This document shows positions 56,133 through 59,651 of a stretch of 64,000 nucleotides of DNA, piece after piece. The notes beneath the pieces are model-generated. The model was not told the origin of the DNA and did no database searches. It saw nothing but the letters and a program-made list of their open reading frames with translations. The translations under genes and the position numbers were made by a program. The stretch covers positions 62,001-126,000 of the forward strand of contig NZ_JARUKW010000003.1 in NCBI RefSeq assembly GCF_029688845.1, in the 5' to 3' direction. Position 1 is the first letter of the stretch, and each line of letters opens with the position of its first letter. This DNA comes from Natronococcus sp. A-GB1 (GTDB lineage: Archaea > Halobacteriota > Halobacteria > Halobacteriales > Natrialbaceae).

Positions 56133-56489
56133 GTGCCGGAAGCGAACCCCGTCGAGCGCTGGCAGGCCCGACTCGAGGAGACCGGCGAGCTCACGCCGGA
56201 GATCGTCGATCGGATCTCGACGTTTCACGGCGACCGCGGGGTTCGCGCCATCGAGGCGGTCGGCGAACACCGCGTGAAGTCCTACCGCGACTTTACGATC
56301 GTCGTCGGCTACGACGACGAGTACATCGTCGAGGACGGCGGCTGTACCTGCAAGGACAGCGAGTACAACCTGGACGACGACGACCCCACGGAGCTGTGCT
56401 GGCACGCCCTCGCGGTGGCGATCGCCCGTCGCGTCGGCCACGTCGACTACCACGACATGTGGTACTCCGACGTCCGCGAGCTGCTCTGA
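56133..56489 (+). CDS. SWIM zinc-finger protein
   Basis: 118 residues with a GTG start at 56133 (product MPEANPVERWQARLEETGEL). The C-terminal half carries VGYDDEYIVEDGGCTCKDSE and ELCWHALAVAIARRVGH, i.e. C-x-C...C-x-H, the SWIM zinc-binding pattern. SWIM proteins are found in Shu/Sws1-like recombination mediators and in other nucleic acid-binding proteins. It lies convergently 45 bp from the Orc1/Cdc6 gene, next to the proposed origin. A role in replication or recombination is inference. Confidence 0.85.
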   Translation: MPEANPVERWQARLEETGELTPEIVDRISTFHGDRGVRAIEAVGEHRVKSYRDFTIVVGYDDEYIVEDGGCTCKDSEYNLDDDDPTELCWHALAVAIARRVGHVDYHDMWYSDVRELL

Positions 56490-57733: not shown

Positions 57734-57786
57734 TCAGCTACTCCGACTATCGGGAGAGGGTGCTTGTAAACGTTCGGAACCGGATT

Positions 57787-58712
57787 GCCGCTGTAATTCC
57801 CTCGGTTTCGTTGTGTCGCGTTCTGAGAAACGGGAACGACACCCCACGATGCCGCTGTATAGGCCGTCCAAGGAGTCCGGAGTGCCGCTGTATGAGTGTG
57901 TCTCTCGCGGTAAGTTGGTCGAAGGTGTGCTCGAGGAGACACCCCTCGGTGCCGCTGTATCGGCGACCGGATCGGCGAAGTTTGAGTACCACCGACGACT
58001 CTCGGGGAGTCGGTATACACCGGAGTTCTTCTGTATGAGGACAAATTCTTGGATAAACAGTCGGATCCGCCCGGTTCTTACCCCTCGGTGCCGCTGTATA
58101 GATACACACACACCCCGCAGTGCCGCTGTAACGGGACGGAAGTGGGGGAGTCGAAACGGAGGTGCTCGGGAACTGACGTCCGCGGCGACGCGATAGTGGA
58201 TGCCGCCTCCTATACGATATCCTCGAGGATGCTGGGCAGCCTCCGCAACGAATCGCAGATGCCTCGAAACGGCCGTCGGTAGCCGTACAAGCAAAAGAGA
58301 CCGCGACGAACTACCCGTCCGACCGCGACAAACTACCTGCCCGACCGCGAGGGGTTTCACGGCGACTGCCGCCCGGACTCGAGCGACGAGTCGAAGAACG
58401 CGACCGAAACGGAAACCGACTCGAGTCTGAACCCCGGATTCGACTCGAGCCATCCCCCGTTCGATACGATCGAACGAAGCAACGTTCGATACTGCTAATG
58501 GACTTTGACTCAGCAATAGTATTTAGGTATGGTGATATCCGCGGGTGAGAGTCAGGTCGAGCGGATTGATATCTTCAGACGAGAAGCGACAATCCAACTC
58601 GCCCGCCGTGGGTCTCGCAACCGCTCGAGAAGCTGTTTCCCCTCCACGTAACGATCGTTCGGTCTTCCATCCCGTCCCTCCTCACGTGAGCTATACAGCG
58701 GCAACGCGGGGT
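57787..58712. other. candidate replication origin with seven ORB-like repeats
   Basis: A non-coding region of about 1.1 kb upstream of the Orc1/Cdc6 gene contains the 20-mer ACCCCTCGGTGCCGCTGTAT or variants. Copies (plus strand): 57778-57796 (degenerate, core GCCGCTGTA at 57787), 57841-57860, 57874-57893, 57941-57960, 58080-58099 and 58112-58131; an inverted copy is at 58693-58712. Read on the other strand the repeat is a GC core followed by GGGGT, like the G-string of haloarchaeal ORBs. The 560 bp between the last direct copy and the inverted copy include AT-richer DNA (58480-58540), a possible unwinding element. Origin identity is inference from arrangement and neighbour gene. Confidence 0.8.
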
Positions 58713-58829: not shown

Positions 58830-59651
58830 TTACGCGGATGCCGCCTTCCCCTCGCGCAGTCGTTCGATCGCCTCCCGAACCGTTTCGGCGTCCTCGGGGT
58901 GCGTTCCGTAAACGATCTCGTCCGCGTGGGGTTCGACCCGCCGCGTGACCCCTGCGAGTCGCTCGGGGTCGATCTCCGCTCCCGACAGCTGGATCGAAAG
59001 CGAGACCTCGAACTCCGCGAGCCGGCGCGCGAACCCGCGGGCCAGCGACTCGGCCCAGTAGCTCGTCCCGTAGCCGGGATCACAGAGCGGGACGAGGAAG
59101 CCGTCGACGTGGGTCGCGAGCGCCTCCGGCTCGATCCCCGTACGCGCTCGAAGGTTCCCTGGATAGGGATCGGGGTACAGCGTCGCGGTCAGATCGCCAC
59201 CGACTCGAGTCGCTACCGCCGCGACGAAGGTCGTGAGAACGTCGGCTCTCCACGCCTCGCGCTCGCCGAATTCGCTCGCCTCGAACTGCCGCTCGCAGCG
59301 CTCGCACCGACAGAACCCCGGTCCGGGAAAGCCGAGCGTCGTCAGCCGAACGTCGCCCTCGATTCCCCCCAGCCGCTCGAGCAGCCCCTGGCGGTAGTCG
59401 GGATCGGTCGGACACACGGTCCCCCAGTGGTGGCCCTCGACGTCGGGCGCGGCCCGCGTTCCGTCGGCGTCGACGGCCGCCCGCTTGGGTTCGTCACGGA
59501 CCGTCGCCGTATCGCCCCAGCAGGCGACGGAGCTGACCGCCCCCTCGAGTGGCTCTTGCCGTCGTCCGTCGACGTACTTCGTGAAGTAGTAGCACCGATC
59601 GCCGATCCCGGCTCGAGCGAGATCACGATCGTCGGTGAGGATGGCATACAT
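58830..59651 (-). CDS. hypothetical protein with glycoside-hydrolase-like features
   Basis: 273 residues starting MYAILTDDRDLARAGIGDRC. Features: VSSVACWGDTATVRDEPKRA, a Cys-rich stretch GPGFCRCERCERQFEASEFG that could bind zinc, the block TATLYPDPYPGNLRARTGIE, and VDGFLVPLCDPGYGTSYWAE. The pattern of strands with terminal acidic or aromatic residues suggests an alpha/beta barrel similar to some glycoside hydrolases. The family is known to me only as haloarchaeal hypothetical proteins. No signal peptide. Catalytic residues cannot be assigned. Confidence 0.75.
   Translation of the reverse strand: MYAILTDDRDLARAGIGDRCYYFTKYVDGRRQEPLEGAVSSVACWGDTATVRDEPKRAAVDADGTRAAPDVEGHHWGTVCPTDPDYRQGLLERLGGIEGDVRLTTLGFPGPGFCRCERCERQFEASEFGEREAWRADVLTTFVAAVATRVGGDLTATLYPDPYPGNLRARTGIEPEALATHVDGFLVPLCDPGYGTSYWAESLARGFARRLAEFEVSLSIQLSGAEIDPERLAGVTRRVEPHADEIVYGTHPEDAETVREAIERLREGKAASA

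Follow-up and report, generated by a model that had tools for sequence, protein, structure and literature searches.

A predicted ori-cdc6 replication origin with a family-specific ORB and a conserved DUE module in Natronococcus sp. A-GB1

The 64,000-nt stretch of the genome of Natronococcus sp. A-GB1 (4.5 Mb) analyzed here, referred to as the window, carries an array of short repeats beside an orc1/cdc6 gene, which raises the question of whether the locus is a replication origin served by an initiator of its own. For haloarchaea, the linkage of initiators to ORB families, the G-strings of these boxes, and the movement of origins between replicons have already been published (PMC3528665), and 102 haloarchaeal origins were predicted by Wu et al. 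2012 (PMC3528665). Judged from sequence comparisons, the locus as a whole is best explained as an ori-cdc6 replicator that is served by a dedicated initiator, a reading to which we assign a probability of roughly 0.8.

An array of ORBs beside an orc1/cdc6 gene

The initial annotation described seven copies of a 20-bp repeat, six direct and one inverted at a distance of about 560 bp, in non-coding and partly AT-rich DNA next to an Orc1/Cdc6 paralogue. A scan of the window agrees with this arrangement. The exact core TGCCGCTGTA occurs seven times between 57786 and 58703, six times in direct and once in inverted orientation, and the inverted core starts 562 bp past the last direct copy (Table 1). 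The AT-richest 50 bp of the non-coding DNA upstream of orc1 (34% G+C) lie between the array and the inverted box, placing several ORBs, including the inverted copy, around an AT-rich region. The full 20-mer was matched by five of the seven copies (at most three mismatches; no match in 100 dinucleotide shuffles), whereas the copies with cores at 57786 and 57883 retain the core but not the full CCCC/GGGG string. The G-string that had been noted on the other strand, where the repeat ends in GGGGT, is accordingly present in five of the seven copies; among 513 boxes of the clade, G accounts for 74–97% in the four string columns. An eighth, decayed core (TTCTTCTGTA) occupies a place where relatives have a further box. 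Genome-wide, the 10-mer TGCCGCTGTA occurs 21 times, 7 times at the array and 14 times elsewhere, and no second cluster was found across the 4.5 Mb.

The intergenic region adjoins an intact orc1/cdc6 gene of more than 300 codons with AAA+ and winged-helix domains, in keeping with the annotated paralogue. Its product matches TIGR02928 (E = 2e-124), the Pfam families Cdc6_lid and Cdc6_C, and ORC1 of A. pernix (2v1u; phmmer, E = 1.3e-62). In the whole genome, about 14 orc1/cdc6-like genes score above the cut-off of the family. Directly downstream of orc1 lies an ORF of 118 aa (56133–56489, plus strand) whose CxC..CxH spacing resembles that of a SWIM zinc finger, with no Pfam match; a similar ORF is present downstream of a broken orthologue (L084). 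Beside the inverted ORB, an ORF of 273 aa (58830–59651, minus strand) contains cysteine motifs and has no match in Pfam or NCBIfam.

Table 1. Features of the predicted origin (positions in the window; cores of the direct ORBs are read on the plus strand; distances are from the orc1 start codon unless stated otherwise)
Feature	Position	Strand	Details and basis
orc1/cdc6 initiator, 399 aa	56534–57733	−	Full-length AAA+, lid, and winged helix; TIGR02928, Pfam, phmmer
ORB	57777–57796	−	−62 from ATG; core 57786–57795; without full G-string; orthologues keep position near −61
ORB	57841–57860	−	−126; core 57850–57859; 20-mer match and orthologue layout
ORB	57874–57893	−	−159; core 57883–57892; weak G-string; layout comparison
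ORB	57941–57960	−	−226; core 57950–57959; 20-mer match and layout comparison
Decayed ORB core, 3 mismatches	58026–58035	−	63 bp from the 32-bp pair; box kept in many orthologues (L023 and others)
ORB, member of 32-bp pair	58080–58099	−	Core 58089–58098; 20-mer match, pair search, layout
ORB of 32-bp pair nearest DUE	58112–58131	−	Core 58121–58130; 20-mer match, pair search, layout
DUE region, forward array to inverted ORB	58132–58692		AT-richest 50 bp 58489–58538; cumulative GC-skew maximum at about 58201
Conserved DUE module, about 100 bp	58435–58534	−	nhmmer E = 2.5e-23; 75 of 75 orthologue loci
8-bp repeat, copy 3	58458–58465	−	25 bp from copy 1; repeat analysis of module
8-bp repeat, copy 2, inverted	58469–58476	+	Repeat analysis of module
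8-bp repeat, copy 1, ATCGAACG	58483–58490	−	Repeat analysis of module
Core motif AAAGTCCATTAGC, consensus AAAGTCCAYTRAG	58494–58506	−	Module alignment, motif searches
AT box CTAAATAC of module	58519–58526	−	Module alignment
Inverted ORB closing the origin	58693–58712	+	Core 58694–58703; 20-mer match and layout comparison

On the opposite strand, the repeat reads ATACAGCGGCA..GGGGT and represents a variant of the archaeal ORB already known. In the form ATACAGCGG(C/A)A(C/A)C..GGGGT, it can be aligned to the canonical CAGTGGAAAC..GGGG core with few changes. The earlier remark that its core differs from the general archaeal ORB core is thereby qualified, and the box also resembles TAACAGCGGAAACAGTGGGGT, which was reported as an ORB in Halorubrum and Haloquadratum (PMC3528665). 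When the ORBs alone are compared, the repeat also has the ACAGCGG core and the G-string in common with the ORB of origin II beside Hla_3512 and Hwa_HQ2959A (TAACAGCGGAAACAGTGGGGTGGGGGGGT; PMC3528665), but differs from it by a spacer that is one base longer and by other flanking letters. A literature search for the ORB core and GTCCATTGAG gave only unrelated works among the matches listed.

Because the repeat is an ORB variant and the specificity of ORBs for their initiators has already been published, the origin belongs to the known haloarchaeal ori-cdc6 class, to which it adds, as a predicted member, a well-documented initiator–ORB family. Like the members described in PMC3528665 and the origins oriC1 and oriC2 of Haloarcula hispanica (PMC3936714), it comprises an intergenic region adjacent to orc1/cdc6, ORBs with a G-string, an inverted copy across an AT-rich region, and a family-specific ORB linked to an initiator family. 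It differs from those origins, as they are described there, in the letters and layout of its ORBs, which are peculiar to this clade, and in the module within its AT-rich element.

Linkage and layout across haloarchaeal genomes

The linkage of box and initiator was assessed by searching 392 haloarchaeal genomes for paired boxes 29–35 bp apart, with the reversed pattern as control. The pair was present in 47 genomes and the reversed pattern in none. It lies beside an intact orthologue of at least 80% identity in 43 of these genomes, beside a damaged orthologue in 2, and beside a homologue of 60–62% identity in the remaining 2 (G050 and G077); no pair was found away from this orc1/cdc6 clade among the 392 genomes. 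Intact orthologues occur in 45 of the 392 genomes, all of the same family as Natronococcus sp. A-GB1, unlike the initiator of oriC1, which is present in all haloarchaea. Only two of the 45 lack the exact pair (G332/L070 and G267/L085), one box being missing or mismatched. The ORB sequence is therefore specific to the initiator family, and the specific initiator–origin pair proposed in the initial annotation is supported, with the co-occurrence expected of it confirmed; a widespread repeat without a linked orc1/cdc6 was not encountered among the 392 genomes. Among the residues that both box-sharing clades possess and the others lack are K348, at the recognition helix, and two residues of the wing, K376 and N382; these are candidate specificity residues.

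The layout of the boxes is likewise conserved among the 75 loci whose orthologue reaches 80% identity or more; about 58 of these loci are distinct. Relative to the start codon, boxes lie near −61, −125, and −157. They are followed upstream by a pair spaced by 32 bp, which is often accompanied by a third box at a distance of 63 bp, and a single inverted box is located 280–840 bp beyond the array. The AT-richest 50 bp fall between the inverted box and the array in 67 of the 72 loci scored. Box spacings in the clade are mostly 32 and 63–64 bp, which corresponds to whole helical turns, but because the figures are drawn from related loci, their concentration is no independent statistic. Homologues of 59–70% identity have the core in common and usually space it by 21–23 bp, i.e., two turns, whereas those of 55–58% identity use another box, TTCACCGGAA. 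A de novo search for 11-mers around the other orc1/cdc6 paralogues of the genome yielded clear ORB-like families at L001, L002, L005, and L007 and low-complexity words at others. On a contig of Natrarchaeobius chitinivorans (L039/L114), about 20 tandem ORB-like boxes, mostly 34–36 bp apart and located −871 to −60 from orc1, replace the usual six, which is an iteron-like expansion of the array.

From the established sequence, linkage, layout, and conservation of the locus, and the origin-restricted distribution of its motif, we infer the functions of origin and module. The Orc1/Cdc6 encoded by the adjacent gene would bind the ATACAGCGGCA..GGGGT boxes, with its winged helix contacting the core and its AAA+ domain the G-string. 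Across the AT-rich duplex-unwinding element (DUE), the inverted box faces the forward array, so that MCM would be loaded there, as suggested by work on Sulfolobus and Haloarcula.

The boxes at −62, −126, and −159 occupy the upstream region of orc1 and could also autoregulate the gene or titrate its product. That the array serves mainly as such a titration or autoregulatory site, like the ORB-rich oriC2D of Haloarcula hispanica, with firing elsewhere, is improbable. In favor of this role are the six boxes that point the same way, three of which keep fixed places no more than 160 bp upstream of orc1, the roughly 20 tandem boxes of L039, and the reported titration of an initiator by an ORB-rich region (PMC3936714). 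Against it, nearly all loci have an inverted box on the far side of an AT-rich element that holds a conserved module, and titration requires none of this.

The reading as a replicator has to be weighed also against that of a dormant or dead origin, whose anatomy is intact while other origins drive the chromosome. Dormant origins whose anatomy is correct are known from haloarchaea (PMC4595724, PMC3528665), and the origin in the window may accordingly be silent; the number of orc1/cdc6-like genes in the genome also speaks for this reading. Moreover, decayed cases of the same origin exist. In G368 (L083/L049, Natronoglomus mannanivorans), the orthologue has lost approximately residues 167–231 (about 65 codons) and undergone a frame change, with all boxes intact. 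In G353 (L084, 3485–5547), only residues 153–396 match, the N-terminal part having been lost next to an ORF that resembles the TnpB of IS200/IS605; ORB pair and DUE module are still in place. Dormancy is nevertheless rather unlikely, because the initiator is 80–99% identical across many genera and the box layout is kept in nearly all loci. The orthologues are found on chromosomes and plasmids alike.

Local GC skew, which had been suggested as a check, points weakly in the same direction. The cumulative skew reaches its maximum inside the origin in a 246-kb stretch of the window's contig (C23) and, over 400 kb of G255, between array and inverted box, and the switch has the same sign in G288 and G205, i.e., in four of the five genomes examined, which speaks against dormancy. 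The sign is opposite in G154, and no clear chromosome-wide pattern was found in the congener G205.

A conserved module in the DUE

The AT-rich element contains a module whose profile was recovered from all 75 orthologue loci; elsewhere in 3.57 Mb of haloarchaeal sequence, no convincing match was found. Its order is an AT box, followed by CTGTGT.A..GTCCATTGAGTG and by three 8-bp copies of ATYGAACG, arranged direct, inverted, direct, with the direct copies 25–26 bp apart. Throughout the clade, AT box and motif are a constant 16 nt apart. The module is probably bound by a further factor, which may assist opening of the duplex or release of the helicase.

A promoter is a conceivable but unlikely alternative. 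The AT box would then be a TATA box, with transcription starting in CCAYTRAG about 25 nt downstream; in a similarly doubtful extension of this reading, the origin would be regulated or opened by transcripts running through the element or by an RNA whose 5' end carries the repeats. The constant spacing of 16 nt between AT box and motif would suit the distance from an archaeal TATA box to the start, and the 8-bp repeats can form hairpins and show partial covariation. However, the stretch between the AT box and the presumed start is itself conserved, which is unusual for a promoter, and in some origins the motif is reversed relative to orc1. Within a locus, copies 1 and 3 agree at 92% (74% when shuffled), whereas the complementary agreement of copy 2 with either of them is 71–75% (62–64% when shuffled). 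The better agreement of the direct copies favors protein-binding sites over a hairpin, and a search of the module against Rfam gave no family at the gathering score. An RNA or single-stranded DNA hairpin was therefore rejected as the main reason for the repeats. In homologues of 59–70% identity, the direct–inverted–direct pattern was seen at several loci (P = 0.005–0.06) but not at several others and is suggestive at most. In the DUE region of L077, a 26-bp unit carrying the 8-bp repeat (TTCGAACGCAAGTACGTTCAATCGGT) is tandemly expanded.

A DUE motif shared with other origins

The left half of the module extends beyond this clade. A 35-nt model built from this initiator clade alone had 36 matches in 243 genomes (E ≤ 0.01), 16 of them outside the clade; 15 of these lie close upstream of another orc1/cdc6, and the remaining one is on a short contig (G081:C110). 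The exact 14-mer AAAGTCCAYTRAGT occurs at 18 sites in the same 243 genomes. Only one of them belongs to this clade; 17 have an orc1/cdc6 at most about 1.1 kb downstream, in the majority of cases one of another initiator class, and the last (G092:C3:12) is upstream of orc1/cdc6 if its contig is circular. The reversed 14-mer has 15 sites, so that the case for AAAGTCCAYTRAGT is its location, not its count. The sole exact AAAGTYCAYTRAG in the genome of Natronococcus sp. A-GB1 lies upstream of a paralogue of 56% identity.

Origins with different ORBs have the motif in common, including L001 and L101/L102 (ORB TTCACCGGAA) as well as others beside orc1/cdc6, where its direction relative to orc1 varies. 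The predicted origin on plasmid pHTUR04 of Haloterrigena turkmenica has all 14 motif letters between its ORBs, and 12 letters match upstream of the orc1 gene on pNMAG01 of Natrialba magadii. The proven oriP of pHH400 of Haloarcula hispanica contains no clear copy of the module, which is therefore not universal. The distribution suggests that this second short motif may be a general, so far undescribed part of haloarchaeal origins.

The closest parallel is the ucm of Sulfolobus, an 11-bp DUE motif that is needed for firing and is bound by UBP, which contacts MCM (PMC12141716). Like ucm at oriC1 of Sulfolobus, the haloarchaeal motif is short, conserved, located in the DUE between inverted ORBs, and common to origins with differing ORBs. 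The likeness lies in position and sharing. The module has another arrangement, consisting of an AT box, the 14-mer, and three 8-bp repeats; moreover, all finds of the exact 14-mer were at origins, whereas UBP binds hundreds of sites (PMC12141716). A second cis element between inverted ORBs is also present at oriC1 of Haloarcula hispanica, but that enhancer is a G-rich inverted repeat beside the ORBs (PMC3936714), unlike the AT box and AAAGTCCAYTRAG of the module. The ubp gene was reported only from Desulfurococcales and Sulfolobales (PMC12141716), and we lean towards the view that AAAGTCCAYTRAGT and the AT box form a DUE element shared across ORB codes and bound by a general origin factor, ucm-like in a lineage without UBP; such a factor would act at the module as UBP does at ucm. 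No description of a haloarchaeal counterpart of ucm was found in the open-access literature, a scope that leaves out most subscription papers.

The 2025 study of ucm and UBP closes with the question of whether analogous origin proteins exist in other lineages of archaea (PMC12141716). With the exact AAAGTCCAYTRAGT sites in 243 genomes all apparently upstream of orc1/cdc6, this question becomes directly testable in haloarchaea, and the DUE motif provides a second sequence tag by which origins can be located in this group. In this respect, it matters more than the origin itself.

Primers for the ARS of Natrinema J7 (PMC5350488), compared with all loci, did not match this origin; primer 2f matches the orc1 locus L016 of Natronococcus sp. 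A-GB1, which is intein-like. Two orc1/cdc6 genes encoding about 575–580 aa (G000:C12:79759-81171 and G205:C1:1484-2878) have a family match in two separate parts, as an intein would cause, and probably represent the initiator of oriC1.
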